DNA of 64,000 nucleotides, from positions 3,410,001 through 3,474,000 of the forward strand of contig NZ_VFNL01000001.1 of the NCBI RefSeq assembly GCF_006715565.1. The letters run 5' to 3'. Shown one piece after another: positions 4,053 through 19,274 of this stretch. This stretch comes from Microbacterium sp. SLBN-154. GTDB taxonomy: Bacteria > Actinomycetota > Actinomycetes > Actinomycetales > Microbacteriaceae. A program made the translations under genes and the position numbers. Under the pieces are notes generated by a model that was given only the letters and a program-made list of their open reading frames with translations, was not told where the DNA came from and searched no databases. Every line of letters begins with the position of its first letter. The first letter of the stretch is position 1.

Positions 4053-5419
4053 ACACCACCAGCATCCGAATCCCGGCCGTCGATGTGCCGGTCATCGGCG
4101 AGTACGACGTCGTGGTCGTCGGGGGCGGACCCGCCGGACTGTTCGCCGCGGCCTCGGCCGGTCGCGCAGGCCGGTCGACGCTTCTCATTGAACGGTACGG
4201 CTTCCTCGGGGGCGCAGGAACGATGGGCGGCCTCAGCACCTTCTGCGGACTGCACGCCCGGGTATACGGCGATGACATGCGGGTGATTCGCGGACTGACC
4301 GACGAGTTGCTCGATCGTCTCGAGGTGCTCGACGGGCTCAATCCTCCTCACCTGAGCGTCGACAACCGCATCATGGCGCAGGCCTTCGACATCTCGGCGT
4401 ACAAGATCGCCGCCGATGAGCTGATGGGCGCCTCCGGCGTTGACCTGCTCTTCCATGCCACGGCTGTGGGGACGGTGATGGACGGCAACCGGATCGATGC
4501 GATCATCATCGAGTCGAAGTCCGGCCGCCAAGCGGTCCGCGGGCGCATGTTCATCGACGGATCGGGTGACGCCGATCTCGCGGTGTGGGCCGGCGCTCCC
4601 GTGGAGCGGTCCGAGCATCTGCTCTACCCCTCGCTGATGTTCCGGATCAACGGCGTCGACCCGGTCGCAGCGGGGCCCGCGTGGAAGACGATCCGACGAG
4701 TCATGGAAGAGGCTGAGGAGGCGGGCACGCACCGGTTCCCACGTAAGAAGCCGATCGTCAGACCGCAGCGTCACCCGATCGAGTGGCGTTCCAACCTCAC
4801 GCAGCTCAGCAATGACGACGGAAGCGCGGTCGACGGCACCGACGTGAGGCAGCTGACCCACGGGGAACTGCAGGGACGGCAACAGGTCAAGCACACGTTC
4901 GCATTCATCCGTGAGCGCACACCAGGGTTCGAAGAGTCTTACGTCGTCGACATCGCCCCGCAGATCGGGATCCGCGAAACGAGGCGGATCGTCGGTTCCT
5001 ACAGTCTGACGGAGGAAGACATCCTCGGCTGCGCGGATTTCGACGACACGATCGGCGTGAACGGGTGGCCGGTCGAGGCGCACGTCGCAGGCGACGTCGA
5101 GTTCCGGTTCGCCGACAGTGCGAGCCGGGGCTTCAACCAGATGCCGTACCGCATGCTGGTGCCGCAGGGCGTACCGAACCTCCTGGTCGCCGGCAGATGC
5201 GCATCGATGTCTCAGCGTGGCCAATCCTCCGGACGGGTCACGGGTCCGTGCTTCGTCATGGGGCAGGCAGCAGGCACTGCCGCCGATCTGGCGCTCGCCT
5301 CGGACACTGACGTCGCCAGCGTGGATGTCGGCCTTCTGCAGCAGCGGCTCGTCGCCGCCGGTGCCTACCTGGGCACGGAGTTGCCGTCTGCGTCGATGGT
5401 CGTTCCGACGCCAGCTTGA
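4049..5419 (+). CDS. FAD-dependent oxidoreductase (FAD_oxidored family)
   Basis: The product is 456 aa. ATG 4049 overlaps the stop of the dehydratase gene by 4 bp (ATGA), so the two are translationally coupled. A Rossmann dinucleotide-binding motif, VVVGGGPAGLFAA, lies near residue 25, followed by the acidic strand end LLIERYGFLGGAGTMGG. A middle GSGDADLA and a C-terminal NLLVAGRCASMS/GPCFVMGQAAGTAA pattern complete the FAD site of this family. The substrate is unknown. Coupling to an IlvD-type dehydratase suggests it oxidises the precursor or product of that step. The 3' end overlaps the convergent IclR gene by 55 bp. Confidence 0.85.
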   Translation: MNTTSIRIPAVDVPVIGEYDVVVVGGGPAGLFAAASAGRAGRSTLLIERYGFLGGAGTMGGLSTFCGLHARVYGDDMRVIRGLTDELLDRLEVLDGLNPPHLSVDNRIMAQAFDISAYKIAADELMGASGVDLLFHATAVGTVMDGNRIDAIIIESKSGRQAVRGRMFIDGSGDADLAVWAGAPVERSEHLLYPSLMFRINGVDPVAAGPAWKTIRRVMEEAEEAGTHRFPRKKPIVRPQRHPIEWRSNLTQLSNDDGSAVDGTDVRQLTHGELQGRQQVKHTFAFIRERTPGFEESYVVDIAPQIGIRETRRIVGSYSLTEEDILGCADFDDTIGVNGWPVEAHVAGDVEFRFADSASRGFNQMPYRMLVPQGVPNLLVAGRCASMSQRGQSSGRVTGPCFVMGQAAGTAADLALASDTDVASVDVGLLQQRLVAAGAYLGTELPSASMVVPTPA

Positions 5420-6207
5420 CCGGAACGGAAGAGGTGGGGGTTCGCGGCGCGGTGGCGTGCGGCGATCTCTGCCGCGGCCTCGCGCAACACCGGCACGATC
5501 TCGGCAGTGAGGGAGTCGGCATCCGATCTCACCGTCGTCGAAGACACAGTGAGCGCCGCCACAACGCTGCCGTCTACGACCACCGGCACTGCCGCGGCGA
5601 TCATGCCGGGATGGAGCTCCTCGAGTGACAGGTCGTACCCGCGGCGGCGAACATCCTCGAGATGCGTCCGCAGGGGTGCGGCTTCGACGATCGTCCGGGG
5701 CGTGAAGCGCTCGCGACGCTGGTCATCGAGGTAACGCTCCCTCGACACCGGGTCCAGGCTCGCGAGCAGGACTCGGCCCACAGCCGTGGCGTGAGCAGGG
5801 AGCCGCATACCGACGCGCACCGCGTCCGGCAGCGGGCGCCTCTCTTCCACACGCGCGACGTGGATGACGTCGTAGCCGTCGAGCACCCCCAGGCTGCACG
5901 TCTCACCCGTCCGGGCCACGACGTCAGACATGACGGGGTGGGCGATCTCCGGCAGCGACGATGATGCGAAGTACCCGGCGCCCAGTTCCAGAATGCGTGC
6001 GGTCAGACTCCACCTGCCGTTCTGCACCCGGACGTAACCGAGGTGCTCGAAGGTGAGCAGGATGCGTCGGACCACCGGGCGAGGCAGTCCGACCCGATCG
6101 GCCACGCCGCTCACACTGAGCGCAGCGTCATCGCCGCCGAAGGCCCTCAACACCGCAACCGCACGCTCGACGCTCTGGATACGGTCGCGTGATCGTTCTT
6201 CGGCCAA
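5365..6207 (-). CDS. IclR-family transcriptional regulator (first of two)
   Basis: The 280-aa protein has an N-terminal winged helix-turn-helix (SVERAVAVLRAF, LSVSGVADRVGLPRPVVRRILLTFEHLGYV) and an IclR effector domain (SLGVLDGYDVIHVARVE, LPAHATAVGRVLLASL, GYDLSLEELHPGMIAAAVPV). This arrangement matches PcaR-type members that bind aromatic or small organic acids. It is encoded 78 bp downstream of the ABC permease on the same strand and overlaps the convergent oxidoreductase gene by 55 bp. Likely targets are the palindromes at 2197-2232 and 9269-9285. That link is by position only. The C-terminal ~20 residues after HLFRSG look like an added tail. Confidence 0.92.
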   Translation of the reverse strand: MAEERSRDRIQSVERAVAVLRAFGGDDAALSVSGVADRVGLPRPVVRRILLTFEHLGYVRVQNGRWSLTARILELGAGYFASSSLPEIAHPVMSDVVARTGETCSLGVLDGYDVIHVARVEERRPLPDAVRVGMRLPAHATAVGRVLLASLDPVSRERYLDDQRRERFTPRTIVEAAPLRTHLEDVRRRGYDLSLEELHPGMIAAAVPVVVDGSVVAALTVSSTTVRSDADSLTAEIVPVLREAAAEIAARHRAANPHLFRSGQAGVGTTIDADGNSVPR

Positions 6208-6285
6208 CGTTCTCCCACTCGCGTCGTCTCGCGCTCGCGCGCCCCGCTCTCATCCTAAAGACCGGGGCGCGCGGAGCTCGAGGAG

Positions 6286-7179
6286 TCACGTCTCAGAGCG
6301 CAGTCCGTACACCGACTCGTGCCAGGGGATGAAGAACCTCTTGGCCTCATTGACGATGAGGTAGAGCACGAGTCCGATCAGCGCCAACAGCAGGATCAAG
6401 GCGAACGTCCTCGCGGCATCCAGCGAATTCATCGCTCTCACCACCATCGCACCGAGTCCCTCGCTGCCTCCCAGGTACTCGCCCACGATGGCTCCGGTCG
6501 TGGCCAGCACGATGCCGACCTCCATCCCGGCGAAGAGGTAGGGCTGCAGGCTCCGCAGCTCGAGCTGGGTGAACGTCTGGGCGCGCGAAGCGTTCAGGCT
6601 GCTCATCACCTCGCGCTGACCCTGCTCGACGGACCGAACGCCCAGGAGCACATTCAGCATGACGGGGAAGAAGGCCAGAAGCGCAGCGAGCACGATCTTC
6701 GAGGTCATCCCGAACCCGAACCAGATGACGAAGAGCGGGATGAACGCCACTTTCGGCGCGACCTGGGAGATGACGATCAGAGGACGGATGCTCAGTTCGA
6801 GCCAGGGAAGCTTTCCGAGCACCACTCCGACGACGACGCCGAGGATGACCGCCACGGCGAATCCAATGAGGATCTCGCTCACGGTGATGCCGAGCTCGGC
6901 CCAGGTCGCAGGATCGGTGACGAGAACCACGAAGGCCTGCCCGACCGCGGCCGGCGGAGGGAAGACGAACGGGTTCACGTCGCCGAGCGTGACGTAAAGC
7001 TGCCAGGCCACGATGATCAGGATCACCAGCGACGGGGTGACGATCCACGGGAGGATCTTCAGCATCCGCCCCTGCGGCTGCCGGCGCTGCACCGCGACGG
7101 GAGTCGTCGGCGCATCATCGACCGTCGTGCGGGCGCCGGGGGCGCTGGTCGGCTCATGTGTCCGGGTCGTCTGGGACAT
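6286..7179 (-). CDS. ABC transporter permease, NitT/TauT (SsuC/ThiX-like) type
   Basis: The 297-aa integral membrane protein begins with ~45 polar residues. Six hydrophobic helices follow. The EAA-type loop (GVRSVEQGQREVMSSLNASRAQTF) is the contact site for the ATPase. The binding-protein-dependent transport domain occupies ~100-285. Only one base separates its start from the stop of the ATPase gene. Together with the ATPase at 7181 and the lipoprotein at 8091 it forms a complete importer. This class imports sulfonates, nitrate, thiamine precursors or aromatic acids; the island context suggests an organic acid or amide. Confidence 0.92.
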   Translation of the reverse strand: MSQTTRTHEPTSAPGARTTVDDAPTTPVAVQRRQPQGRMLKILPWIVTPSLVILIIVAWQLYVTLGDVNPFVFPPPAAVGQAFVVLVTDPATWAELGITVSEILIGFAVAVILGVVVGVVLGKLPWLELSIRPLIVISQVAPKVAFIPLFVIWFGFGMTSKIVLAALLAFFPVMLNVLLGVRSVEQGQREVMSSLNASRAQTFTQLELRSLQPYLFAGMEVGIVLATTGAIVGEYLGGSEGLGAMVVRAMNSLDAARTFALILLLALIGLVLYLIVNEAKRFFIPWHESVYGLRSET

Positions 7180-7180
7180 C

Positions 7181-8011
7181 TCAGTGCTCCTCGTCGAGGT
7201 CCTGGCGCAGCGCGCGGACGATGTCGTTGAATTCGGGGGTGGTCTGGAGATCGATCGTGCGGGGCTTGGGCGTGTCGACGGGGAGGATCTGGCGGATCCG
7301 ACCCGGCCGCGGCGTCATGTGGACCACCCGGTCCGCGAGGAAGACCGCCTCGGGGATGTCGTGCGTGACGAAGACCACCGTCGAGTTCGTCTCCAGCACG
7401 ATGCGCTGCAACTCGAGATTCATCCGCTCCCGGGTCAGCGCATCGAGAGCGCCGAACGGCTCGTCCATGAGCAGGAGGTCGGGGCGGGTGCTCAGTGCGC
7501 GGGCGATGGCGGCTCGTTGACGCATCCCGCCGGAGAGCTCGCGGGGATAGGACTTCTCGAACCCCGAGAGCCCGACGAGCGCGGCCAGCTCCTGCGCCCG
7601 TTCGCGTCGCTCCCGTTTACCCACTCCGCGGAGCTTCAGGGGAAGGGCGATGTTGTCCAGGACCGAGAACCAGGGGAAGAGGTTGCTCTCCTGGAAGACG
7701 AAGCCGAGCTTCGTGATCGCCGTCGGATCGACGCGGCTGCCCTTCCACAGCGGCTTGCCGTCGACCTCGATCGTTCCGGCGCTGGGGGCGAGAAGGCCGC
7801 CGATCATGCGCAGGAGGGTCGTCTTGCCGCAACCGGAACGACCGATGAGGGCGACGAATTCGCCCCGCTGGATATCGAGGTCGATTCCCGATACCGCGTG
7901 CGTGACGCCCGACTTGGTGTGGAAGTCGCGGCCGATGCCCTGGATCTTGAGCCTGGGCCTGTCGACCTCGGTGGTGGGGGGAAGAACGGATGCGACGGTC
8001 TCGCTGGCCAT
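7181..8011 (-). CDS. ABC transporter ATPase, NitT/TauT (SsuB/TauB-like) type
   Basis: The 276-aa ATPase starts at ATG 8011. Walker A (GRSGCGKTT) is at ~57-65, the Q-loop in VFQESNLFPWFSVLDNIALP, the signature LSGGMRQRAAIARAL, Walker B LLLMDEPFGALD and the switch histidine in VFVTHDIPEA. All are intact. It powers the permease at 6286. The gene lies 79 bp below the binding-protein stop, and a strong hairpin fills that gap (8052-8084). Confidence 0.95.
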   Translation of the reverse strand: MASETVASVLPPTTEVDRPRLKIQGIGRDFHTKSGVTHAVSGIDLDIQRGEFVALIGRSGCGKTTLLRMIGGLLAPSAGTIEVDGKPLWKGSRVDPTAITKLGFVFQESNLFPWFSVLDNIALPLKLRGVGKRERRERAQELAALVGLSGFEKSYPRELSGGMRQRAAIARALSTRPDLLLMDEPFGALDALTRERMNLELQRIVLETNSTVVFVTHDIPEAVFLADRVVHMTPRPGRIRQILPVDTPKPRTIDLQTTPEFNDIVRALRQDLDEEH

Positions 8012-8051
8012 CGTCGGCCTCCTGTGTCGTCGTGATGATCGGGGGATGCGC

Positions 8052-8084
8052 GGTGACCCCGCCCGGGAAGCGGGCGGGGTCACC
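8052..8084 (-). promoter_or_regulatory. Perfect intercistronic hairpin between binding protein and ATPase genes
   Basis: GGTGACCCCGCCCG (8052-8065) and CGGGCGGGGTCACC (8071-8084) are perfect 14-bp complements around a 5-base loop. No T-run follows on the minus strand, so it is not a classical terminator. Placed after the binding-protein gene, it probably stabilises that mRNA end or partly attenuates read-through, giving more binding protein than membrane components. Confidence 0.7.
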
Positions 8085-8090
8085 GTCGTT

Positions 8091-9188
8091 TCAGTCGCCG
8101 GGCACGTAGTCGTTGGTGATCCACTCCTGCGGGTCCTTGCCGCCCTGCAGGAGTCCGGCATCGACGTAGGTGTCGTACGTCGTCTGCCAGGCATCCACGT
8201 CGTTCTCCAGCAGGCGGACGTCGGCGGCCTCGTTGACCCACGTCTCGGTGGTGTAGATCTTCAGGGCCTCGACGGCGACCTGGTCGTCCTCCAGCGCCGG
8301 GAACGACCAATCGCCGCTCTCACGCAGCGTCTGCAGCACGTTCTCGAAGTCGTTGGGTGCGTCGTCGATGACGTCCTGGACGGCTTCGTCGATCGCGGCG
8401 AGGAACGCCTCGAGGTCTTCGACGAGCTCGGGATCCTCGAGATTGTCGGCGGTGGTGATCCAGGTCTGGATGTCGGGAGCGTCGGTCAGGCCCGCGGGAT
8501 CGACGACCGCATCGTCATTCTGCTGCGCGATCGCGAGCGAGGTGTCCAGGCTCACGATGTACCCGTCGAGCTGCCCCTGACGGACCACCTCCATGGTGGC
8601 GCCCGTCACCGGCACGGCCTGTCGGGTCACCGAGTCCAGCGGGACGCCGTCCGCGCCGAGCGCCAGATCGAGCATCTTCTCGCTCGTCCCGCCGAGCGAG
8701 CCCATCCCGATCGTGGCACCCTCCATGTCCGACGTGGAGGTGATGGAGTTGTCTTCGGTGGAGGCCACCCGCAGGTTCGACTTGTAGGCCATCGTCCCGA
8801 TCGAGCGGAGCTCCTGCCCCTGCTCCATGGCGGGGAAGACATCCACCGTGCTGGCGCGGGTGATCGGGGTCGCCCCACCCAGGAGCGCCTGGATGGCAGC
8901 GGCCGTGCCCTGTACCGGCTGCAGCTGGACGTCGAGGCCGTGCTTTTCGAAGTACCCGCCCGAGTACGCGAACATCTCCGGCGTGAAGCTGAAGGACTCC
9001 AGCGGGAGGAAGGTCACGACGAGCATCTTCGTGAGTTCCGTCTCCTGCTCGTCGCCGTCGGACGCCGCGGGGGCTCCCCCCGTGGAACAGGCCGTCAGCG
9101 CCAGCGCGCCTGCAGCCAGGAGCGCGGTGGCGACGCGGGCGTTGATCCGCCTGCGGGACGTGGCCGGGGGACGCACTGCTTTGCTCAT
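8091..9188 (-). CDS. NMT1/THI5-like ABC substrate-binding lipoprotein
   Basis: The product is 365 aa from ATG 9188, with AGGAG just upstream. The N-terminus is a lipoprotein signal: basic start (SRRRINAR), hydrophobic core and lipobox LTAC with Cys34. Mature residues follow the NMT1/SsuA pattern (AYSGGYFEKHGLDVQLQPVQG, ALLGGATPITRA, IGMGSLGGTSEKML, VRQGQLDGYI). It captures the unknown solute outside the membrane for the permease at 6286. An inverted repeat overlaps its likely -10 box at 9269-9287, so expression can be regulated independently of the genes upstream. Confidence 0.92.
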   Translation of the reverse strand: MSKAVRPPATSRRRINARVATALLAAGALALTACSTGGAPAASDGDEQETELTKMLVVTFLPLESFSFTPEMFAYSGGYFEKHGLDVQLQPVQGTAAAIQALLGGATPITRASTVDVFPAMEQGQELRSIGTMAYKSNLRVASTEDNSITSTSDMEGATIGMGSLGGTSEKMLDLALGADGVPLDSVTRQAVPVTGATMEVVRQGQLDGYIVSLDTSLAIAQQNDDAVVDPAGLTDAPDIQTWITTADNLEDPELVEDLEAFLAAIDEAVQDVIDDAPNDFENVLQTLRESGDWSFPALEDDQVAVEALKIYTTETWVNEAADVRLLENDVDAWQTTYDTYVDAGLLQGGKDPQEWITNDYVPGD

Positions 9189-9268
9189 TTCTGACTCCTG
9201 TGTCGGGATGATCCGCCCACGCCATTGCGGGCGGCAGTGACGAGTCTGCAGAGCGCTTTCGCGTCGTC

Positions 9269-9287
9269 CAATGACCTTTTCATTGTA
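9269..9287 (-). promoter_or_regulatory. Promoter/operator of the transporter operon
   Basis: CAATGA (9269-9274) and TCATTG (9280-9285) form an inverted repeat with a 5-bp spacer. On the minus strand a -10-like TACAAT (9287-9282) overlaps one arm, with the start codon of the lipoprotein gene ~95 bp further on. The -35 region is weak. The position fits a repressor site near the transcription start. It does not match the operator at 2197-2232. Confidence 0.45.
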
Positions 9288-9303
9288 TGGAATGCCGTGT
9301 GGA

Positions 9304-9726
9304 TCACGTCGAGGACGAAGCGGATTGGAGGATCGTGACGACACCGCTCTCGCCGTCGACGCGCACGAGGTCACCGGTGCGGATGGTCTCCAGGGGGCGG
9401 GGAAGCGCCTGCACCACCGTGGGCACGCGCGTGACGATCGCACCCAGCACCGCCTTGGTGGTGAGCACGTCGAAGACCATCGCGGCCGGCGCCGTTCCCA
9501 TCAGCCGGGTGCTCTGGAAGAAGCCCGACCAGCCCGATGAGCCTTTGGCGCCCGGGAACACCAGCACTTGGCCGGTGAAGCACACTCCGAAGAGCTCGTG
9601 CCGCGGCTCGATGACCGTTCCCGTGGCGACGTCGATACCACCGAAGCCAGAGATCGGTTCGCGGGTGACCAGCGCGGGCGCCTCGACGACGCCGGGCACG
9701 ATCCCGCGCCCGCGGAGCTCGATCAC
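9304..9726 (-). CDS. Aconitase X small (swivel) subunit, DUF126 family
   Basis: The product is 140 aa. GTG 9726 overlaps the stop of the large subunit by 4 bp (GTGA). Motifs of the DUF126/AcnX swivel domain are visible: GRGIVPGVVEAPALV near the start, then SGFGGIDVATGTVIEP, LVFPGAKGSSGWSGFFQ and DLVRVDGESGVV. The domain closes over the catalytic domain of the large subunit, and Ser in PGAKGSS is at the position of the substrate-binding serine. Known AcnX enzymes are cis-3-hydroxy-L-proline dehydratase and archaeal phosphomevalonate dehydratase. The substrate here is not evident. Confidence 0.9.
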   Translation of the reverse strand: MIELRGRGIVPGVVEAPALVTREPISGFGGIDVATGTVIEPRHELFGVCFTGQVLVFPGAKGSSGWSGFFQSTRLMGTAPAAMVFDVLTTKAVLGAIVTRVPTVVQALPRPLETIRTGDLVRVDGESGVVTILQSASSST

Positions 9727-11003
9727 CGCAGCCCGCCTCCCCAGCGCCCGGTGAGCGCGGCGTCCACGCACTCTTCCAGCGTTCCGAACCAGGCCTCGAT
9801 CCCGAGGATCGCCGGCAGGTAGTGCGCCTGCTTCGCGGAGTCGGTCGCGAAGACGCGCGTCCCGGGCGGAGCCGCCCGCGACATCGCCGGGCAGGAGTCG
9901 GTCAGAACGCGGCCCCCGGCGGCCGTGATCGTGCGGGTGTATCCGTTGTGGAAGGCGACGGATGACAGCGCACGCGGCATCATGACCCACAGCTCGGTGT
10001 CGGCGTGCAGGCGGCGACCCTCCAGCAGAGCGGCGAGCTGAGCGACCTGATCCAAGGAGGCGTGCGGGCACCCCAGGAGCACGAAGTCGACGTCGCGGCT
10101 CGTTCCGCGGCTGTTGAGCGCGTCGTAGACCGCGGCCCGTTCGCGGGCGCCGTAGGAGACCGGTTCGGCGATGCGGGCTCCGCCGAAGGCGGCCTCGAGA
10201 GTCGGCGCCTCCGGAGTGATGCCCGGCAGGTGGTAGAGCTCCACGCCTCCGGAGGTGGCGGTCGCGGCGCCGAAGTGCTTCAGGTCGGCGAGGTCCGGCT
10301 GGCCCAGCTTCCCCACGACCGCAGGCCGCGCCTCCTGCACCAGTTCTCCCACGAAGTAGCCGAGCATCCCCCATTCCTGGAAGCCGTCCACGGTGACGTC
10401 GGCACGGACGAGATGGGTGGCGTGCCGGTTCTCCGGGAGGTGATTGCCCCAGTAGGGGATCTTGCCGGTGAGGGCAGCCGCACCGGTCGACGACGCGCCC
10501 TCGCAGTTCGTGCGCGCCCCGAGGACCGAGTTGCAGTACACCACCGCCGAGGACTCCATCCACGCGCAGTGCTCTCCGCGAACGGGCAGGTTGCCGACCT
10601 GGTAGGGGGTGCAGGTGGCGAGGATGTTGACGCCGCGGTCACTGAAGTACGACTCGGCGTCGTCCTGCAGGCGGATGGCGGAGTCGGCATAGTGCGTGAG
10701 CCCCGAGGCATCCCCGGCGAATCCGTGCTGGAGCTGACAGGTCGGCACCTTCATGCGCGGAATCTCGATGTCTCGATCGCAGTCGAGGTTGATCACCGCG
10801 TAGGCCTTCGCCCACCCGCCCTCCTCGACGAGCTTCGCCTTCGCCGGGGACGGCTGGGTCATCGTGCCCGCGACGTTGCGGGTCTCCACGAGCCGCTCGG
10901 CGCCGAGCGCGTCGCCGTAGCGAACGAGCAGGTCCATCGCTGCGGCGACGGCCTCGCCTTCGGCGCCGTCGCGCATCCGCTTCTCATCGTCGGTGAGACG
11001 CAT
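9723..11003 (-). CDS. Aconitase X catalytic (large) subunit, DUF521 family
   Basis: The 426-aa protein starts MRLTDDEKRMRDG, which is typical of AcnX large subunits. It carries the cysteine-containing motifs that hold the metal or iron-sulfur centre: ATCTPYQVGN, ARTNCEGASS and LTDSCPAMSR. It pairs with the small subunit at 9304. The family catalyses dehydration of hydroxylated small acids. Separate subunits put it in the two-polypeptide class of AcnX. It follows a small CxxC gene (9 bp gap, 11004-11012). The association with a UGSC-family gene suggests a dehydration step in a specialised pathway. Confidence 0.92.
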   Translation of the reverse strand: MRLTDDEKRMRDGAEGEAVAAAMDLLVRYGDALGAERLVETRNVAGTMTQPSPAKAKLVEEGGWAKAYAVINLDCDRDIEIPRMKVPTCQLQHGFAGDASGLTHYADSAIRLQDDAESYFSDRGVNILATCTPYQVGNLPVRGEHCAWMESSAVVYCNSVLGARTNCEGASSTGAAALTGKIPYWGNHLPENRHATHLVRADVTVDGFQEWGMLGYFVGELVQEARPAVVGKLGQPDLADLKHFGAATATSGGVELYHLPGITPEAPTLEAAFGGARIAEPVSYGARERAAVYDALNSRGTSRDVDFVLLGCPHASLDQVAQLAALLEGRRLHADTELWVMMPRALSSVAFHNGYTRTITAAGGRVLTDSCPAMSRAAPPGTRVFATDSAKQAHYLPAILGIEAWFGTLEECVDAALTGRWGGGLR

Positions 11004-11011
11004 GGGCTCGC

Positions 11012-11269
11012 CTAGTGCGCGGCCTCTGCGGGCAGGATGACGTGGTCGAGCGCGTAGGGGGTGGGCTCCAGCGCCTTGGCCATGATCGCCTCCATGACGT
11101 TGACCGGCACGAGGCAGTCGGCGCAGGCGCCTTCGGTCGCATCGATCCGCACCACGATCCGCTGCGGGTCCGACGGCTCCCAGCTGAGGACGTAGCCGTC
11201 GGCGGCCATCATGTCGGTGAACTGCTGCAGCGCCTCATCGACCGTCTGGGGCTTCGTGGCTTCGGTCAT
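11012..11269 (-). CDS. Small CxxC protein, NifU C-terminal-like
   Basis: The product is 85 aa from ATG 11269, which overlaps the upstream stop by 4 bp. It has an acidic N-terminal helix (VDEALQQFTDMMAADG), a beta-hairpin (YVLSWEPSDPQRIVVRIDATEG) and the motif ACADCLVPVNVMEAIMAKAL. This resembles the NifU C-terminal scaffold (CxxC followed by a helix). It could deliver an iron-sulfur cluster to, or act as a third subunit of, the neighbouring AcnX. I cannot name a family with certainty. Confidence 0.75.
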   Translation of the reverse strand: MTEATKPQTVDEALQQFTDMMAADGYVLSWEPSDPQRIVVRIDATEGACADCLVPVNVMEAIMAKALEPTPYALDHVILPAEAAH

Positions 11270-12381
11270 GCTGTCGCTCCGATCTTCTGATGCGAGTACG
11301 GGTGCACCCGAGGCGGGTTGAGCGTGAAGATCTCGACGACGGCCGACACCCCCGCGTTGTCGGCCCCGGCGACCATGATCTGGATCGAGGTGGGATTGCT
11401 CAGCGCTCGGACCACATCGGGCTCCTCCGTCTGGCTGGCGGAGTCGGGCATGGAGTCGGGATGCGTCGCCGCGAGACGCCAGCGCGTCTTGTGCGACAGG
11501 GCGTCCTTGCCGACCGCGACGAGGTCTTCGCGCTTGCGGACCGCGTTCTCGTACACGAACGACCGCAGATCGTCCTTGCTCCAGCCGGCCGATGCGAACA
11601 CGTCCGCGTGCTCGGGCGTGAGCACCAGCAGCGCACTGGTGTACTCGTGGATCAACGCTCCGGTGCGCACGATCGTGTCCGTGAGATCTCGCGCGAGCTG
11701 TTCGGGCGACTGCGTGTGCCGCGCCTCGATGTGGATGACCGAGCGGATCACGAACGCCGTCACGACGTCGTCGGAGGCCTCGAATCCATGCTCGGTGTGG
11801 AGGGCCGGCCACGGGCTCTGCTCCTCGTTCTCGGCGATGCACGCCGAGTACTTCGCCGGTGTGCCCTGTGTCGCCTGGTCGAGTTTGTGCGGGTGCAGTC
11901 CGAAGACGTTGATGCAGCCCAGGCGGATCGCACGTCCGATGGTGGCGTTCGCACGGAAGCCGGAGCCGAAGATGTTGCCGGTGCTGTTGAGCGCGATCCG
12001 CTCACGCACGGGACCGTTGACCACGAGAAGCGGCGCGGTGCCGGTCGTGGACTGCCAGATCCCCCGTGCCGGGTGCGGCTCTTTCGCGATGGCCTCCCAC
12101 GCGGCCACCACGACGGGGAAGTATTCGCTGCGGCAGCCCGCCATCGCCGCGTTGATCGCCGCGAGTCGCACCGTCAGATGACGGTTCAGATGGGTGATGG
12201 AGAAGAGCACCTCGTCGGGGTCGCGCGCAACGGTGGCGAGGAACTCCGCCAGCAGCGTCCCGGTCACGGGAACGACGGGGAGGCCGTCGGTCCACTCCTT
12301 GTCGAAGTAGTGCTCGACGATCTCTCGCAGCGCGTCGGCCTCCGCGATCGTGGTGTCATCCATGGTCGTCGGCGAACTCAT
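11266..12381 (-). CDS. Uncharacterised 371-aa protein of the UGSC/AcnX operon
   Basis: I do not recognise this family. ATG 12381 overlaps the UGSC gene stop by 4 bp, and its own stop overlaps the CxxC gene by 4 bp. The protein is soluble, without signal peptide or membrane segment. Features include EWTDGLPVVPVTG near residue 32, a glycine-rich NSTGNIFGSGFRANATIGRAIR, VFGLHPHKLDQATQG and three histidines in HLNRH and HTEHG. The C-terminal half has helical segments and a motif IMVAGADNAG. Strict coupling to the UGSC protein and AcnX suggests a shared pathway or complex. Confidence 0.75.
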   Translation of the reverse strand: MSSPTTMDDTTIAEADALREIVEHYFDKEWTDGLPVVPVTGTLLAEFLATVARDPDEVLFSITHLNRHLTVRLAAINAAMAGCRSEYFPVVVAAWEAIAKEPHPARGIWQSTTGTAPLLVVNGPVRERIALNSTGNIFGSGFRANATIGRAIRLGCINVFGLHPHKLDQATQGTPAKYSACIAENEEQSPWPALHTEHGFEASDDVVTAFVIRSVIHIEARHTQSPEQLARDLTDTIVRTGALIHEYTSALLVLTPEHADVFASAGWSKDDLRSFVYENAVRKREDLVAVGKDALSHKTRWRLAATHPDSMPDSASQTEEPDVVRALSNPTSIQIMVAGADNAGVSAVVEIFTLNPPRVHPYSHQKIGATA

Positions 12382-12923
12382 CGTCCCTCCTCCACTCCGA
12401 GGATCCTCAGCACCTCGGGCATCGCGGTCATCGCGCGCTCGCGGACCTCTTCGGCTGTCAGACTCGCCATCGGGTGCTTCACCGCGTAGAAGTCGAACCC
12501 CGGGAAACCCTGGACCGACGCCATCGCCTGACCCGACATCAGGAACGAGTCGGAGGTGATGCTGACGGTCGGCACCCCCGCGCGCTCGAACATGATCCCG
12601 TCTGCGACCGTGGCCGCGCTGCACGATCCGCAGTCTCCGACGGCGGTGATGACGACGTCGCACTCGCGGACGATCTCCTCGAGCAGCGTCTGCTTCACGG
12701 GCGTTCCGAAGTAGTCCTTGGTGTACAGCCTTGCTTCGCCGGCGCCGTACTGGTCCTGCAGCTGCGCGGCGATCGTCTCGAGCAGCAGGGTGGAGTTGGG
12801 CTTGGTGTTGTCGAGGAGCCCGATCGTGAGCCCCTTGAGGCTGACCGGGCGCGGCGAGAGCGTGGTGTCGGCTGCGCCCGCCTCCATCCCGGTCGGGTCC
12901 AACAGCGCTTCCAGCTGTGCCAT
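12378..12923 (-). CDS. UGSC-family protein, cysteine form
   Basis: The 181-aa protein starts at ATG 12923 with GGGAG upstream. It has a Rossmann-like first strand (LKGLTIGLLDNTKPNS) and then CDVVITAVGDCGSCSAATVADGIMFE. The Cys98-Gly-Ser-Cys101 motif corresponds to the U-G-S-C motif that names the UGSC (seleno)protein family. Here the first position is an ordinary TGC codon (12632-12630), so no selenocysteine insertion is needed. Family function is unknown; a redox or C-S/C-Se chemistry role has been suggested by the motif. It is the first gene of the minus-strand train and divergent from the gene at 13085. Confidence 0.85.
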   Translation of the reverse strand: MAQLEALLDPTGMEAGAADTTLSPRPVSLKGLTIGLLDNTKPNSTLLLETIAAQLQDQYGAGEARLYTKDYFGTPVKQTLLEEIVRECDVVITAVGDCGSCSAATVADGIMFERAGVPTVSITSDSFLMSGQAMASVQGFPGFDFYAVKHPMASLTAEEVRERAMTAMPEVLRILGVEEGR

Positions 12924-13084
12924 CGCGATCTCCCTCGGTGCGTCTCGGTCGGAACGTCGACAGGATGGCACGGCGGCCGCATCGGACTGCACCCTCGTTT
13001 TCGCTGTGCGGAAGAGTGCGTGCCCCGTGCGGGGCGGCCTGGCCAGGATGGGGCGACGACCTGAAGCCGACCCGAGGAGGACCC
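12924..13084. promoter_or_regulatory. Divergent control region of the two catabolic operons
   Basis: This 161-bp gap separates the minus-strand UGSC-AcnX operon from the plus-strand dehydrogenase operon, so it must hold both promoters. The clearest symmetry is GCCCCG-TG-CGGGGC at 13022-13035. I find no convincing -10/-35 pair on either strand and no copy of the 2197-2232 operator. GAGGAGG just before GTG 13085 is a strong ribosome binding site. Confidence 0.45.
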
Positions 13085-14233
13085 GTGCCCACTCCCCCTC
13101 CCGCGACGATGCGGGCGGCGATCCTGGCGGAGGACCGACTGGAGGTGCGCGAGATCGCCACCCCTGTTCCCGGACCGGACGAGGCCCTCCTCCGCGTGAG
13201 CGCCTGCGGCGTCTGTCACACCGACCTGCACGTCATGAAAGGCGAGGTGCACTTTCCGCGGCCGGCGGTGCTCGGTCACGAGGTGAGCGGATCGATCGTG
13301 GCCATCGGTGCCGGCACCGCCGATACGCGCACGCTGCGGGTGGGCGACCGCGTCGCGGCCGGGTTCATCATGCCGTGCGGCACGTGCGCGCAGTGCGCGC
13401 GCGACCGCGACGACCTCTGCACCGAGTTCTTCCGGCGCAACAGGCTCGAGGGAACGCTGTACGACGGCAGGAGCCGGCTGGCGATGCCCGACGGCTCGTT
13501 CCTGGCGATGTACTCGATGGGAGGCCTCGCCGAGTACGCCGTCGTCCCCCTGACCGCCCTCACGAGCCTCGACGACGACCTCGACCTCGACACCGCCTGC
13601 ATCCTGGGCTGCTCCGGGCTCACCTCCTACGGGGCTGTCTTCCGGGCCGGCGCAGTCGCACCGGGGATGTCCGTGGCCATCGTCGGTGTCGGCGGCATCG
13701 GGACGAGCCTGATCCCGATGGCCCGCGCGGCCGGCGCCGAGAGGATCGTGGCGATCGACATCGCGCAGGAGAAGCTCGCGCGAGCGAAAGACCTCGGCGC
13801 GACCGCTGTGGTGGATGCCGCTCGGGAAGATCCCGTCGCGCGCGTCCGCGAACTCACGGGCGGGGTGGACGTCGCGTTCGAGGCACTCGGACGGCCCGCG
13901 ACATTCGCCCAGGCGGTGGGGATGCTCGCCGACGGCGGGCGGATGGTGGCGATCGGCATCGCGGCGGGGGCCGCAGCCGCCGAGATCGAGATCACCCCGC
14001 TCGTGCGCCGGGGACAGCAGATCATCGGGTCGTTCGGCGCGCGGACACGCACCGATCTGCCGCAGGTCGCCGCGCTCGCCGCATCCGGTTCTTTCGATCC
14101 CGCAGATCTCGTCTCTCGCCGATACACGCTCGACGAGGCGGACGAGGCCTACCGGGCGCTCTCCCGTGGCGAGATCACGGGACGCGCCATCATCACCATG
14201 AGCGCCGCGCGCGCAGCAGAGGAGCAGCAATGA
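13085..14233 (+). CDS. Zinc-dependent alcohol dehydrogenase (MDR family)
   Basis: The 382-aa protein starts at GTG 13085, supported by AGGAGG 4 nt upstream. The N-terminal half has the catalytic-zinc motif CGVCHTDLHVMKGE with GHEVSG, and a four-cysteine structural zinc site CGTCAQCARDRDDLC. The C-terminal half has the NAD-binding motif GVGGIGT followed by VAIDIAQEKL. It likely oxidises a hydroxyl compound to an aldehyde or ketone. It is the first gene of a six-gene operon in which each gene overlaps the next by 1-4 bp. Confidence 0.92.
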   Translation: MPTPPPATMRAAILAEDRLEVREIATPVPGPDEALLRVSACGVCHTDLHVMKGEVHFPRPAVLGHEVSGSIVAIGAGTADTRTLRVGDRVAAGFIMPCGTCAQCARDRDDLCTEFFRRNRLEGTLYDGRSRLAMPDGSFLAMYSMGGLAEYAVVPLTALTSLDDDLDLDTACILGCSGLTSYGAVFRAGAVAPGMSVAIVGVGGIGTSLIPMARAAGAERIVAIDIAQEKLARAKDLGATAVVDAAREDPVARVRELTGGVDVAFEALGRPATFAQAVGMLADGGRMVAIGIAAGAAAAEIEITPLVRRGQQIIGSFGARTRTDLPQVAALAASGSFDPADLVSRRYTLDEADEAYRALSRGEITGRAIITMSAARAAEEQQ

Positions 14234-14682
14234 CGACGGCCTTGACCCTGGAGGATCTCCCCGACGCGATCGGAAGACGGCTCGGCCCGTCGTCGTGGCA
14301 CCCCATCACGCAGGACGACATCGACGTCTACGCCGATCTCACCGGCGATGACAATCCCATCCATGTGGATGCCGAAGCCGCGGCCGCGTCACCCTACGGC
14401 GGGCGCATCGCCCACGGCATGCTCACGTTGAGTATGGTCGTGCGACCGCTCCGGGAGATCTACCGTGTGAGCGGGGCGGGGATGGGGATCGTGTACGGCT
14501 ACAACCGCATCCGGTTCCCCCAGGCTGTCCGCGCCGGCGCCCGTATCAGGGTGGCCGGCGAGGTCGCCGACGTGACGGAGGTCGCCGGCGGGTATCAGGC
14601 CACGCTCTCGCTCACGTTCGAGGTGGAGGATGCGACCAAACCGGCGGTCGTGGCGGAGCTCGTCCTGAGGCACTACCGATGA
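14230..14682 (+). CDS. MaoC-like (R)-specific enoyl-CoA hydratase
   Basis: The 150-aa hot-dog-fold protein has the hydratase-2 motif TGDDNPIHVDAEAA with the Asp/His catalytic pair, and GGRIAHGMLTLSM further on. Its start overlaps the upstream gene by 4 bp and its stop overlaps the next. It would hydrate an enoyl-CoA to a 3-hydroxyacyl-CoA for the adjacent SDR, after the acyl-CoA dehydrogenase encoded at 18096. Confidence 0.9.
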   Translation: MTTALTLEDLPDAIGRRLGPSSWHPITQDDIDVYADLTGDDNPIHVDAEAAAASPYGGRIAHGMLTLSMVVRPLREIYRVSGAGMGIVYGYNRIRFPQAVRAGARIRVAGEVADVTEVAGGYQATLSLTFEVEDATKPAVVAELVLRHYR

Positions 14683-15596
14683 GCGGGGTGCAGCTGACCG
14701 ACAGGGTCGCGATCGTCACGGGTGCCGGCCGCAGCCTCGGGCGCGCCTATGCGCGGGCGCTGGCCGAGGCCGGTGCGGCGGTCGTCGTCAACGACGTCGA
14801 CGAAGCGGCCGCGGCCGAGGTCGTCGAGGAGATCGTCACGGCGGGAGGCCGTGCGGTCGCATCCGTCGGTGCGGTCGGTCCGACGCGGACCGCGGACGCG
14901 CTCGTGACATCCGCTCGCGAGAACTTCGGGCGTCTGGACGTCCTCGTCGCGAACGCGGGGGTCCTGCGCGATCGGGTGCTGTGGAAGATGGATGACGCGG
15001 ACTTCGACCTCGTCGTCGACACGCACCTTCGCGGATCCTTCACGTGCGGACGGGCCGCGGCGTCGTTCATGAGGGAACAGGGCGAGGGGGGCAGGATCAT
15101 CCTCATCGGTTCACCCGCGGGCCAGTTCGGCAGCTTCGGCCAGACGAACTACGCCGCGGTGAAAGCCGGGCTCGTCGCGATGGCGCGCACCTGGTCGCTG
15201 GAGCTCGCCCGCGCCGAGATCACCGCGAACGCCGTCATCCCGACAGCACTGTCGCCGATGACCGCCACGATCCCCGCCTACGCACAGGTCTACCAGGACT
15301 ACCTGGCCGGCATTCCGATACCCGAACGGTTCCGCCGCGACAACGCGCTCGGGACTCCCGACGACGTCGCACCGCTAATCGTGTGGCTCGCATCAGAGGC
15401 GTCGCAGGGCGTGACCGGGCAGGCGATCGGCATCGGCGGCGACAAGCTCACCCTGTACGCGCACCCGGCCGCGCTCGACGCGGCGTACGCTGCCGGCGGG
15501 TGGGATGCCGCGGGGATCGACGAGGTGTGGCGCGCCCGGTTCGCTCCCCTCGCGCAACGCAGCGGCCCCCCGGTCAGAGAGCAGCCGGCATCGTGA
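14679..15596 (+). CDS. Short-chain dehydrogenase/reductase
   Basis: The 305-aa protein has the SDR cofactor motif TGAGRSLGRAYA at ~14, VNDVDEA (an acidic residue favouring NAD), NAG at ~91 and the catalytic Ser/YxxxK in GSPAGQFGSFGQTNYAAVKAG. It resembles multifunctional-enzyme-type 3-hydroxyacyl-CoA dehydrogenases, which act after a MaoC hydratase. The gene start overlaps maoC by 4 bp and its stop overlaps the CoA-ligase start (GTGA). Confidence 0.9.
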   Translation: MSGVQLTDRVAIVTGAGRSLGRAYARALAEAGAAVVVNDVDEAAAAEVVEEIVTAGGRAVASVGAVGPTRTADALVTSARENFGRLDVLVANAGVLRDRVLWKMDDADFDLVVDTHLRGSFTCGRAAASFMREQGEGGRIILIGSPAGQFGSFGQTNYAAVKAGLVAMARTWSLELARAEITANAVIPTALSPMTATIPAYAQVYQDYLAGIPIPERFRRDNALGTPDDVAPLIVWLASEASQGVTGQAIGIGGDKLTLYAHPAALDAAYAAGGWDAAGIDEVWRARFAPLAQRSGPPVREQPAS

Positions 15597-17215
15597 TCGC
15601 GGTGCACTACAGCGATCTCTGGCAGGGAATCGCGCGTGCCGATCCGGAGCGACCGGCGATCATCACCTCGGACGGGGAGATGTCGTACGCGCGCTTCGCC
15701 GCCGAGGCCGGTGCTCTCGCTCGCCACCTGCAGGAGCGCGGACTGGTGGTCGGCGACGCGGCGGCGATGCTGCTGTACAACCGTGCCGAGTACCTGACGT
15801 TCCTGTGGGCGTGCCTGTCCATCGGCGTCGCGCCGGTGGCCATCAACTACCGCTACCGCGCCGGCGAAGTGCGCACCCTGCTGCAGGACTGCGACGCACG
15901 CGTGCTGCTCGCGCCGACCTCACTGGCGCACGTGGTGCGAGAGGCGAACGCGGGCCTGGATCACCCCGTGGCGGTGATCTCGGTCGACGACGGCGGTCCG
16001 GCGATCGACGGCGCGGCCTCGTGGACCGAGATCGTCCACGAGGGCGGGGCGATGCCCGAGCGTGCGCCGAGCGGCGCCGACATGCGCCTGTACACCGGCG
16101 GGACCACGGGGGCACCGAAGGCGGTGGTGTGGGACGTCGACACCCTGCTCCACGCCCGCCGGCAGTCGACGTGGGGCATCGTGGGACTCGAGCCGCCCGC
16201 GGATCTGGCGCAGGCGGTGCGCATCGCGGTCGACCCGGCGACCCCGCGCGTGGTGACTCTGCCGCTGCCGCCGCTGCTGCACGGCACGGCCCAGTCGACG
16301 ACCATGGGCACGCTCGCCCTCGGCGGTACGGTCGTGCTGCAGAGCGGGGCGAGCCTCGACGTGGCCGAGGCACTGCGGCTGGCCCGGGCGCACCGGGTGA
16401 CGCGGATCATCGTGGCGGGGGATGCCGTTGCGCTGCCCTTCGTGGAGGCGATCGAGCGCAGCGGCCGGCGTCTGGCCGACCTCAGGTCGGTCCTCAGCTC
16501 GGGCATGCGATTCAGCGACGACGTGAAACGCCGACTGCATGCGCAGGGCGACGTCATGATCGTCGACCTCCTCGCCTCCAGCGAGGGGGGCCCTTTCGCA
16601 TTCGGCGTCACCCATCGCGCCGAAGACCTGCCGGCCCGGTTCGTGACCACGCCCGAGACGGTGCTGCTGGATCCGGACCTCAACGAAGTGGCGCCCGTCG
16701 CCGGCGCCCTCGGCATCCTGGCCTTCCGCGGCGTGCTCCCGTCGGGGTACTACGGCGACCCCGAGAAGACGGCGCGCTCGTTCCCCGTCATCAACGGCCG
16801 GCGATACGTGATGCCCGGCGACTGGGCGCGTTCCCGAGGCGACGGATCGATCGAGCTGCTCGGCAGACTGAGCGCGGTCGTGAACACCGGCGGCGAGAAG
16901 GTGTTCCCGGCCGAGGTCGAGGACGTGCTGCTGGCGCATCCGAGCGTCGATGACGCGATCGTCTTCGGGCTTCCCGACGCGCGCTTCGGCGAGTCGGTGT
17001 GCGCGATGATCGCGCCGGTGCCCGGTGAGACGATCGACACCGCTGCGCTCGTGGTGCACCTCGACGCGCACCTGGCCGGTTTCAAGAAGCCACGCCACTT
17101 CTTCGTCCGCGACAGCCTCGGCCGGTCGGCGACCGGCAAGATCGAGCTCGCCCGGGTGAAGGAGGATGCCGCCCGCGAGCTGGCGGGGCGGGCAGCGAAG
17201 GAGGTCGTCCGTTGA
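15593..17215 (+). CDS. Acyl-CoA synthetase (AMP-dependent)
   Basis: The 540-aa protein starts at GTG 15593, overlapping the SDR stop. ANL-family motifs are in order: the P-loop-like YTGGTTGAPKAVVW, A5-like LLASSEGGP, the hinge region PGDWARSRGDGSIELLGR, and NTGGEKVFPAEVEDVL. The catalytic lysine near the C-terminus is in GRSATGKIELARV. It activates a carboxylic acid to its CoA thioester, the entry step of the operon. The overall pattern is close to FadD3/cyclohexanecarboxylate-type ligases, but the acid is unknown. Confidence 0.92.
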   Translation: MIAVHYSDLWQGIARADPERPAIITSDGEMSYARFAAEAGALARHLQERGLVVGDAAAMLLYNRAEYLTFLWACLSIGVAPVAINYRYRAGEVRTLLQDCDARVLLAPTSLAHVVREANAGLDHPVAVISVDDGGPAIDGAASWTEIVHEGGAMPERAPSGADMRLYTGGTTGAPKAVVWDVDTLLHARRQSTWGIVGLEPPADLAQAVRIAVDPATPRVVTLPLPPLLHGTAQSTTMGTLALGGTVVLQSGASLDVAEALRLARAHRVTRIIVAGDAVALPFVEAIERSGRRLADLRSVLSSGMRFSDDVKRRLHAQGDVMIVDLLASSEGGPFAFGVTHRAEDLPARFVTTPETVLLDPDLNEVAPVAGALGILAFRGVLPSGYYGDPEKTARSFPVINGRRYVMPGDWARSRGDGSIELLGRLSAVVNTGGEKVFPAEVEDVLLAHPSVDDAIVFGLPDARFGESVCAMIAPVPGETIDTAALVVHLDAHLAGFKKPRHFFVRDSLGRSATGKIELARVKEDAARELAGRAAKEVVR

Positions 17216-18096
17216 GCACCGGACCGGGAATCGACATCGCCGCCGTCACGGCGATCGATGTCCACGTGCACGTGCAGATCGACGACAGCGGTCGCACCGC
17301 TTCGCCGCGGGCACTGACCGAGGCGATGGCGGCGTACTTCGGCAGCAGCGAGAAGCCCCGTACGGTCGATCAGACGGCGACGTACTACCGCGAACGGGGA
17401 ATGGCCGCGGTCGTGTTCACCGTCGACGCGACGACGAACCTCGGTCACGCACCCAACAGCATCGACGACCTCGCTGCCGGAGCGCGGCGCAACGCGGATG
17501 TGCTGATCGCCTTCGGCAGCGTCGATCCGCTGCAGGGCCCGGCTGCCGTCGACGAGGCGCGACGCCAGGTGCACGAACTGGGGGTCCGCGGGTTCAAGTT
17601 CCACCCGTCGGTGCAGGCCTTCGATCCCTCGGCGGAGGAGTTCACCCCCCTGTGGGCGGCGATCGAGGAGATGCAGGTGCCGATCATCGTCCACACCGGC
17701 CAGACCGGGGCGGGAGCGGGAACGCCGGGCGGGTGGGGGTTTCGGCTGTCCCTGTCGAACCCGATGCTGCTGGACGACGTCGCCGCCCGGCATCCGCATC
17801 TGCAGATCATTATGGCTCACCCCAGCGTCCCCTGGCAGGACGAGGCGCTCTCGATCGCCACGCACAAGGCGAACACGTGGATCGACCTGTCGGGGTGGTC
17901 ACCGAAGTACTTCTCCCCCGCCCTGGTCCGAGCGGCACGGACCTACTTGAAGCACAAGATGCTGTTCGGCTCGGACCTGCCCGCGCTGACCCCCGACCGG
18001 TGGCTGAAGGACTTCGCGCTGCTGGAGTACCCGGAGGACGTGCAGCGGATGATCCTCAAGGACAACGCCGTCCGCTTGCTCGGGCTGGAGCAGTGA
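17212..18096 (+). CDS. Amidohydrolase-2 family (ACMSD-like) hydrolase/decarboxylase
   Basis: The 294-aa protein starts at TTG 17212, overlapping the ligase stop. Metal-site motifs are complete: IDVHVHV (His18, His20), FKFHPS, VHTGQ, MAHPSVPW and FGSDLPA. This is the amidohydrolase-2 pattern, whose members are mostly non-oxidative decarboxylases or C-C/amide hydrolases acting on ring-derived acids. Its position between a CoA ligase and an acyl-CoA dehydrogenase suggests it trims a ring-cleavage or carboxylated intermediate. Confidence 0.88.
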   Translation: MSTGPGIDIAAVTAIDVHVHVQIDDSGRTASPRALTEAMAAYFGSSEKPRTVDQTATYYRERGMAAVVFTVDATTNLGHAPNSIDDLAAGARRNADVLIAFGSVDPLQGPAAVDEARRQVHELGVRGFKFHPSVQAFDPSAEEFTPLWAAIEEMQVPIIVHTGQTGAGAGTPGGWGFRLSLSNPMLLDDVAARHPHLQIIMAHPSVPWQDEALSIATHKANTWIDLSGWSPKYFSPALVRAARTYLKHKMLFGSDLPALTPDRWLKDFALLEYPEDVQRMILKDNAVRLLGLEQ

Positions 18097-19268: not shown

Positions 19269-19274
19269 CGCGGC

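Follow-up and report, generated by a model that had tools for sequence, protein, structure and literature searches.

What reaction would bring an aconitase X together with a member of the UGSC selenoprotein family and two proteins without a family name? The question is raised by five genes at positions 9,304 to 12,923 of a 64,000-nucleotide stretch of Microbacterium sp. SLBN-154 (NZ_VFNL01000001.1, positions 3,410,001 to 3,474,000; this whole stretch is referred to here as the window), which encode, in the direction of transcription, a UGSC-family protein, a protein of 371 residues (U371), a short protein with a CxxC motif (the CxxC protein), and the large and small subunits of aconitase X (AcnX-L and AcnX-S). 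UGSC and U371 almost always occur as a pair, and sometimes as a single chain; the CxxC protein goes with this pair, and AcnX, with a complete dehydratase site, lies in the same island. We lean, tentatively and with somewhat less than even confidence, towards the reading that the operon supplies the central enzymes of an island for the degradation of an imported small carboxylate, in which a GrdB-like thiol or selenol reductase works together with a dehydratase.

Conservation of the gene neighborhood

Within the operon, the UGSC and U371 genes, the U371 and CxxC genes, and the two AcnX genes overlap by 4 bp. A preliminary description of this DNA, made from the sequence alone, had reported five tightly coupled genes on one strand, which are indeed present, and a 9-bp step between the CxxC gene and AcnX-L, where the gap from stop to start is 8 bases (11004-11011). 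The gene calls (25 predicted genes, window 528-24748) were made with our own codon-usage script, not with a standard gene finder.

Co-occurrence of the components was assessed in 247 genomes of the genus, with absences taken from a loose first look in which at most eight (U371), seven (AcnX) or 22 (CxxC) candidates per genome were scored. U371 is encoded in 31 of the 247 genomes, the CxxC family (profile A2) likewise in 31, and an AcnX match was obtained in 29, those in G508, G588 and G531 being distant or weak. The CxxC protein is present in 30 of the 31 genomes with U371 and in one of the 216 others (Fisher p 2.6e-36), and AcnX in 25 of the 31 and four of the 216 (Fisher p 1.3e-24), kinship among the genomes being ignored in both tests.

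Among stretches covering most U371 copies of the genus, 26 loci, the window excluded, encode a U371 ortholog at least 64% identical to that of the window (the copy in G575:C4 falls just below this threshold). In 23 of these loci UGSC is no more than 1.5 kb from U371, and in 17 the CxxC gene is no more than 0.5 kb away; AcnX is found at up to 1 kb in 14 loci and at up to 10 kb in 20. L080 stops at a contig edge, and at L101 and L116 U371 has no adjoining UGSC gene, the rest of those genomes not having been searched. The exact five-gene order recurs at 11 of the 26 loci (L079, L081, L083-L088, L094, L095, L097) and in Agromyces (L127), and because the order is identical, with nothing interposed, the grouping is not due to chance. 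At six further loci (L090, L091, L093, L096, L099, L101), AcnX has been relocated yet is found within 10 kb of U371. Of the 15 loci analyzed where U371 is less than 64% identical, UGSC adjoins it in 14, the CxxC gene is within 0.5 kb in one, and none has AcnX within 10 kb.

A profile scan of the genome_contigs set returned at least 589 matching stretches, at least 584 of them related to U371, and the best 80 of these were analyzed. These come from Actinomycetota, Chloroflexi, Pseudomonadota, Candidatus Rokuibacteriota, Binatia, Poribacteria, haloarchaea and other lineages; in 75 of the 80, UGSC is no more than 1.5 kb from U371, and in two AcnX is no more than 10 kb away, many of the stretches extending less than 10 kb on one side. 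The Agromyces locus has AcnX and U371 in the gene order of the window, and in Geodermatophilus (L133) AcnX is about 3 kb away. A draw of genomes from the phylum yielded U371 matches, some of them weak, in 31 of 396 genomes, with UGSC in the stretch of 23 of the 29 non-window loci. Twenty-four plasmid records carry U371, and two of the nine examined, from Sporomusa termitida and Vibrio europaeus, have AcnX near a UGSC-U371 fusion. Natural fusions of UGSC with U371 occur at L064, L124 and L195, and on an Arthrobacter plasmid (L120) UGSC is extended at its C-terminal end by the CxxC protein, a fusion that turned up by profile, the plasmid search with the CxxC protein itself having found none. Twelve genomes picked for having U371 (G833-G844) hold 66 copies, up to 13 per genome.

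The grouping is therefore not confined to one strain or genus; it survives rearrangements and, in part, spans phyla, which agrees with the proposal in the preliminary description that the genes form one functional unit. The equal standing given there to all five genes is not borne out, the core being UGSC-U371, with or without CxxC, and AcnX a frequent but dispensable companion. The window unites two modules, the UGSC-U371-CxxC set and the AcnX set. At L128, L130 and L131, UGSC-U371-CxxC is accompanied by an IlvD-type dehydratase (54-55% identical) and an oxidoreductase dependent on flavin adenine dinucleotide (FAD; 68-72%), with no AcnX in the available stretch.

Some further arrangements were observed. 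A Bacillota bin (L134:8488-11020) has a CxxC gene followed by two tandem U371 genes, with no UGSC found, and genes annotated as phosphosulfolactate synthase near UGSC-U371 in Natrinema (L119:5892-6359) and Arthrobacter (L120:6728-7516) are a possible hint of a sulfonate-type substrate. Our literature searches returned no paper common to UGSC and aconitase X; subscription papers were mostly outside their scope, so that prior publication is possible.

The UGSC domain and its partner U371

The UGSC protein matches Pfam PF24696 with 227.6 bits (cut-off 25) and NCBIfam NF041046 with 157.8 bits (cut-off 125), and belongs to the family, with the motif CGSC at positions 98-101. The codon corresponding to C98 is TGA in 60, TGC in 16 and TAG in one of 77 matches from genome_contigs, and TGA in 21 and TGC and TGT in one each of the 23 matches from the phylum draw; all 38 matches in the genus set, one of which (L117) comes from another genus, have TGC. 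In Geodermatophilus ruber (L133:9504-10037) the active-site codon is TAG rather than TGA or TGC; UAG has been reported as a selenocysteine (Sec) codon in the genus Geodermatophilus. Genes resembling selA and selB, which cluster with annotated Paracoccus copies (L122), were found at five more loci. Since the copies of the genus are all Cys forms, no selenium machinery is needed for their study, and the function of UGSC can be addressed by ordinary genetics and enzymology.

Profile comparison suggests a relationship to GrdB, component B of glycine reductase, whose Sec-containing end is the part that UGSC matches. In a single pairwise hhalign comparison, the UGSC profile matched six GrdB-type sequences at 95.3% (E 2.2e-8) with the Sec/Cys columns aligned, the controls giving 1.6% and 0.1%; the profiles of GrdB and of sequences like PrdB of D-proline reductase match each other at 99.7%. 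TGA occupies the equivalent position in all 18 GRDB proteins that were extended (from 20 loci), and five of the six GrdB rows have Ser in place of the second motif Cys. These GrdB and PrdB alignments draw on 17 of the 20 loci (without L212, L216 and L220), and the UGSC alignment (A4) on 47 of 77 non-window places. The Pfam GRDB model PF07355 did not match UGSC at E up to 1, and the NCBIfam models gly_red_sel_B (E 0.072) and PrdB (E 0.094) remained far below their cut-offs. From the profile match, we infer that UGSC is a stand-alone Cys form of the GrdB-type selenol domain. The same genomes contain many short PrdB-like GRDB proteins whose genes have an in-frame TGA (L214-L219, L221, L225-L229), with at most seven GRDB matches per genome, and eight of the 12 genomes that have them show no PF09338 match.

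The single-chain AlphaFold model of UGSC is an alpha/beta domain (mean predicted local distance difference test score, pLDDT, 93.1; predicted template modeling score, pTM, 0.86) in which C98 sits between the strand 90-96 and the helix 99-114. A sequence search of the PDB with the UGSC profile gave a best E of only 0.052. The accessible part of the Global Ocean Sampling (GOS) survey supposes a thioredoxin-like fold for UGSC and already contains a UGSC fusion with a domain called 'Unknown_1' (PMC2398784), and a 2026 review, in the portion available, places UGSC among proteins of thioredoxin-like fold whose functions are largely uncharacterised (PMC13188914). The strand-helix order of the predicted model, in our reading, does not appear thioredoxin-like, and such a fold was rejected on this ground.

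U371 has no Pfam family, with no match better than E 0.012 among 72 members. Its single-chain AlphaFold model is confident (pLDDT 93.0, pTM 0.92), and a fold search of the PDB returned nothing at E<=0.001 (best 5.4e-3, a fumarate hydratase, TM 0.22); the best E of a sequence search of the PDB with the U371 profile was 0.34. Fifteen positions are invariant in 72 aligned rows: D32, G33, P35, P38, A81, G82, C83, G123, R143, N145, R150, L154, E184, H258 and G339. This alignment (A3) includes 71 of 86 non-window places, L156 being left out for an internal stop and others for their length or by choice. A relationship of U371 to GrdB/PrdB was considered and rejected, its profile matching that of GrdB at 0.7%. 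Internal stops are also present in the U371 matches at G566:C1:3229946-3231061 and G556:C1:2809773-2810852, copies that look damaged.

Potential electron donors are found near some of the pairs. The gene trxB adjoins UGSC or U371 on three annotated plasmids, those of Arthrobacter (which also has trxA), Roseovarius and Variovorax, and the TrxB-like cluster has members at L114, L120, L121, L126, L128, L158 and L199. A TrxB-like gene is within 5 kb of U371 at five loci (L119 onward); most U371 loci have none nearby.

Aconitase X and the surrounding island

AcnX-L matches PF04412 with 373.9 bits and AcnX-S the swivel domain PF01989 with 76.2 bits. By alignment with TkAcnX, the iron-sulphur ligands of the large subunit are C131, C312 and C371, and by alignment with TkAcnX and AtAcnX its catalytic and carboxylate-binding residues are E150, S151, K391 and Y395; in the small subunit, S63 corresponds to the general base. 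The landmarks of hydroxyproline recognition differ, Asp203, Ile206, Thr72 and Trp35 of the At enzyme being replaced by A45 and T49 of the large and G65 and F28 of the small subunit. The NCBIfam model for the hydroxyproline enzyme, which spans both domains as one chain, gives 225.2 bits against a cut-off of 700. HMMER leaves a gap in the phosphate loop, where Gly48, Val49, Ser50, Asn53 and Asn79 of the Tk enzyme have no firm alignment; if the loop is placed, by our reading, on a shared VAG motif, V49, S50 and N53 are not kept. As far as the available part of PMC8184944 goes, Type II AcnX comprises IIa, acting on cis-3-hydroxyproline, IIb, acting on mevalonate 5-phosphate, and the uncharacterised IIc-IIf. 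Judged by these residues, the substrate is probably not cis-3-hydroxyproline, in line with the new substrate that the preliminary description had considered possible, and may not be mevalonate phosphate either, the loop alignment being weak, so that the enzyme probably belongs among Types IIc-IIf.

In a tree of 45 AcnX rows, the sequences of the genus group with those of Agromyces, G369, G652 and G728 (100/99), followed by Paroceanicella, Burkholderia and Geodermatophilus (100/99). The window AcnX stands apart from the two LhpI rows, the deep fork being weak, and the Sporomusa and Vibrio rows are long branches that the tree leaves unplaced. Proximity to U371 changes four times on this tree, at least three times by firm branches; as three changes may amount to one gain and two losses, repeated formation of the neighborhood is possible rather than shown. 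Close relatives of AcnX without U371 nearby (L062, L063, L066, L241, L242) are accompanied by IlvD (49-51%; not found at L241) and by another kind of FAD oxidoreductase (27-30%); in the genome of L241 (G728), some 18 kb separate AcnX from UGSC-U371. At L095 the matches to AcnX-L and AcnX-S are both split in two, and the copy looks damaged.

The island around the operon (2397-20069; Table 1) recurs at many loci of the genus, not with every gene at each locus. In the PDB, the FAD oxidoreductase is matched in its FAD motif only, and the amidohydrolase by one uncharacterised protein sequence only. Membership of the permease and ATPase of the ATP-binding cassette (ABC) transporter in the Sec-assisted organometallic (SAO) system was rejected, with 116.1 against SaoP (295 needed) and 220.8 against SaoA (360 needed). 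No proline racemase or imino-acid reductase is found among the 24 proteins scanned of the 25 predicted genes, so the absence noted in the preliminary description holds for this part of the window, the rest of the genome not having been searched. Beside the island, at 20075-22203 of the window, a class III aminotransferase gene is followed by one weakly resembling dimethylarginine dimethylaminohydrolase or arginine deiminase, with matches at seven and two of 46 loci, respectively.

Table 1. Genes of the operon and of the island that contains it, in window coordinates
Feature	Coordinates	Strand	Remarks
UGSC-family protein, 181 aa	12923-12378	minus	PF24696; Cys form, D97-CGSC (C98, C101)
U371, 371 aa, UGSC partner	12381-11266	minus	no Pfam family
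CxxC protein, 85 aa, NifU-like	11269-11012	minus	nothing at cut-off in Pfam
AcnX large subunit (AcnX Type II), 426 aa	11003-9723	minus	PF04412; alignment with 7CNR and 7CNP
AcnX small (swivel) subunit, 140 aa	9726-9304	minus	PF01989; alignment
IlvD/EDD-family dehydratase	2397-4052	plus	
FAD-dependent oxidoreductase	4049-5419	plus	PF12831; 65-72% identical in L128, L130, L131, L133 (with UGSC-U371)
IclR-type regulator	5365-6114	minus	
ABC permease	6286-7179	minus	
ABC ATPase	7181-8011	minus	
NMT1/SsuA-like ABC substrate-binding protein	8091-9188	minus	
Zn-type alcohol dehydrogenase, divergent from UGSC	13109-14233	plus	
MaoC-like hydratase	14230-14682	plus	
Short-chain dehydrogenase/reductase (SDR) oxidoreductase	14679-15596	plus	
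AMP-forming acyl-CoA ligase	15593-17215	plus	
Amidohydrolase	17212-18096	plus	PF04909
Acyl-CoA dehydrogenase	18096-19268	plus	
Second IclR-type regulator	19275-20069	minus	

A proposed pathway, its competitors and known systems

In the pathway that we favor, C98 of UGSC (Sec in most relatives) would attack or reduce a substrate held by U371, with D32, C83, N145, R150, E184 and H258 as candidate residues; C101 would aid resolution of the bond, and the thiol would be restored by thioredoxin and thioredoxin reductase or by the NifU-like CxxC protein. Like glycine or proline reductase, but with another partner, UGSC-U371 would act on a group adjacent to the carboxylate and reduce or remove it, in this genus in bacteria that are not known as strict anaerobes. 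After or before this step, AcnX would eliminate water from a 3-hydroxy-carboxylate by means of a [4Fe-4S] cluster bound by C131, C312 and C371, with S63 of the small subunit as base and the participation of E150, K391 and Y395. IlvD and the FAD oxidoreductase would belong to the same branch of the pathway, and the ligase, MaoC, SDR and acyl-CoA dehydrogenase would complete it by a route resembling beta-oxidation. It is also conceivable, and we put it forward with greater reserve, that UGSC-U371 represents an unrecognised class of selenoenzymes, found in many bacterial lineages of soil and sea as well as in haloarchaea and made of a GrdB-type selenol domain and a substrate subunit of new fold, whose paralogs would each reductively cleave a different carbon-heteroatom bond; the window would then contain, for one such substrate, a Cys form linked to an uncharacterised AcnX dehydratase and to a helper resembling NifU.

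Several observations weigh against a reductase acting with AcnX. The UGSC-U371 fusions near AcnX in Sporomusa (L064:5130-6854) and Vibrio (L124:7401-9086), which contain the two UGSC domains near AcnX that were found outside Actinomycetota, have DMGTS in place of [UC]GSC, with Met replacing the Cys/Sec and Ser replacing the second Cys, and both retain C83 of U371. As the catalytic Cys/Sec is lost, a redox center is not needed in these fusions, and C83 may be the residue more fundamental to catalysis. U371 is not recognisable as a relative of GrdE or PrdA either, hhalign giving 0.1% against eight PF09338 rows (of 11); for both reasons the redox mechanism is one that we infer. The UGSC profile matches 11 PrdB-like sequences only weakly (9.9%, E 0.0032), with Sec on Sec, and Foldseek places the UGSC model near generic flavodoxin-like and other alpha/beta folds, with a query TM of at most 0.48 among the 50 matches listed. 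Four of the AcnX loci without U371 nearby (L062, L063, L066, L242) are close relatives of that of the window, two of them (L066, L242) come from genomes in which no U371 was found, and the counts in the genus are not corrected for kinship.

UGSC-U371 might instead be another kind of thiol enzyme, such as a peroxidase, a disulphide oxidoreductase, or a non-redox lyase or isomerase using C83 of U371. We regard this as rather unlikely, although the invariance of C83, even in the fusions devoid of the UGSC Cys/Sec, speaks for it, as does the thioredoxin-like fold assumed in what is accessible of the GOS survey (PMC2398784); the GrdB profile match aligns Sec with Sec, the neighboring genes are catabolic rather than stress-related, and the model, as we read it, would not be thioredoxin-like.

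The co-occurrence could also reflect a single horizontally spread island, so that its genes share a history rather than a reaction. The patchy presence of U371 in the genus, the conservation of whole blocks and the blindness of the Fisher tests to kinship are all compatible with such a history. It appears improbable, however, given that AcnX stays within 10 kb of U371 after rearrangement, is next to it or a few kb away in Agromyces, Geodermatophilus, Vibrio and Sporomusa as well, and that domain fusions occur.

More doubtful still is the suggestion, made in the preliminary description, that the CxxC protein loads iron-sulphur or metal into AcnX, with UGSC and U371 as bystanders or further helpers. 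The 17 members of the CxxC family share an invariant A48-C49-x-D51-C52-x-x-P55, and the best PDB match of the window protein is NifU-like protein 2 (2z51; E 0.0079 for the whole chain, 0.14 for the best stretch), followed by NifU-like protein 1 (E 0.2); three of the 17, but not the window protein, match Pfam NifU (PF01106; best E 3.1e-5). Because of this NifU likeness an iron-sulphur role is conceivable; AcnX retains its cluster cysteines, and in the genome of the window nothing matches Pfam NifU. The distribution of the protein nevertheless follows U371. It is within 0.5 kb of U371 at 12 of the 80 genome_contigs loci, only one of which has AcnX within 10 kb; besides its near-universal presence in the U371 genomes of the genus, it was not found in the four with an AcnX match but no U371 (three of these matches being distant or weak); it is fused to UGSC in Arthrobacter; and it has no gene at L082 and L089, where AcnX lies beside U371. 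The role of a loader for AcnX was therefore rejected.

That the AcnX pair acts on cis-3-hydroxy-L-proline is very improbable, for although this activity is known, in the parts of the sources available, for Types I and IIa (PMC8184944, PMC5144071) and the corresponding NCBIfam model does match, the score is far under its cut-off, the residues contacting the ring and nitrogen are changed, the tree position is away from LhpI, though by a weak deep fork, and the epimerase or racemase genes carried by two hydroxyproline clusters that were examined are missing from the part of the window scanned.

With these results, UGSC is given a partner that accompanies it almost without exception and whose fold is unknown, together with a third component, and it is probably akin to glycine reductase; the uncharacterised subclasses of Type II AcnX gain a pathway context. 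The five coupled genes point to an unfamiliar breakdown route for small organic acids.

Among known systems, the likeness of the ABC permease and ATPase of the island to the SAO system is generic ABC similarity. The CxxC protein has its CxxC placed as in the C-terminal domain of NifU (PF01106), after a DG...V.V..I region, but the motif of its family is ACxDCxxP and the window protein has no NifU match. AcnX resembles Type II enzymes, within the available part of PMC8184944, in its two subunits, its three cysteines as in TkAcnX and its retained Glu, Lys, Tyr and Ser; it differs in that hydroxyproline-type landmarks are absent and phosphate-type ones not recognisable. The UGSC protein is a member of the selenoprotein family described, as far as accessible, in PMC2398784 (PF24696, NF041046), where the family is left without an assigned function, but in a Cys form accompanied by CxxC and AcnX. 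The comparison with glycine and proline reductases is the closest to the proposed chemistry. UGSC differs from GrdB and PrdB in lacking a GRDB Pfam match, in its weak match to PrdB-like sequences and in a partner, U371, that is not GrdE/PrdA-like, whereas it shares with GrdB a Sec/Cys after a beta strand, at the start of a helix, and, with the six GrdB rows, the pattern U-G-[ST]-[SC] followed by a stretch like 'E.AGIP'; thioredoxin reductase genes adjoining some UGSC pairs are a further likeness to the glycine and proline reductase systems.

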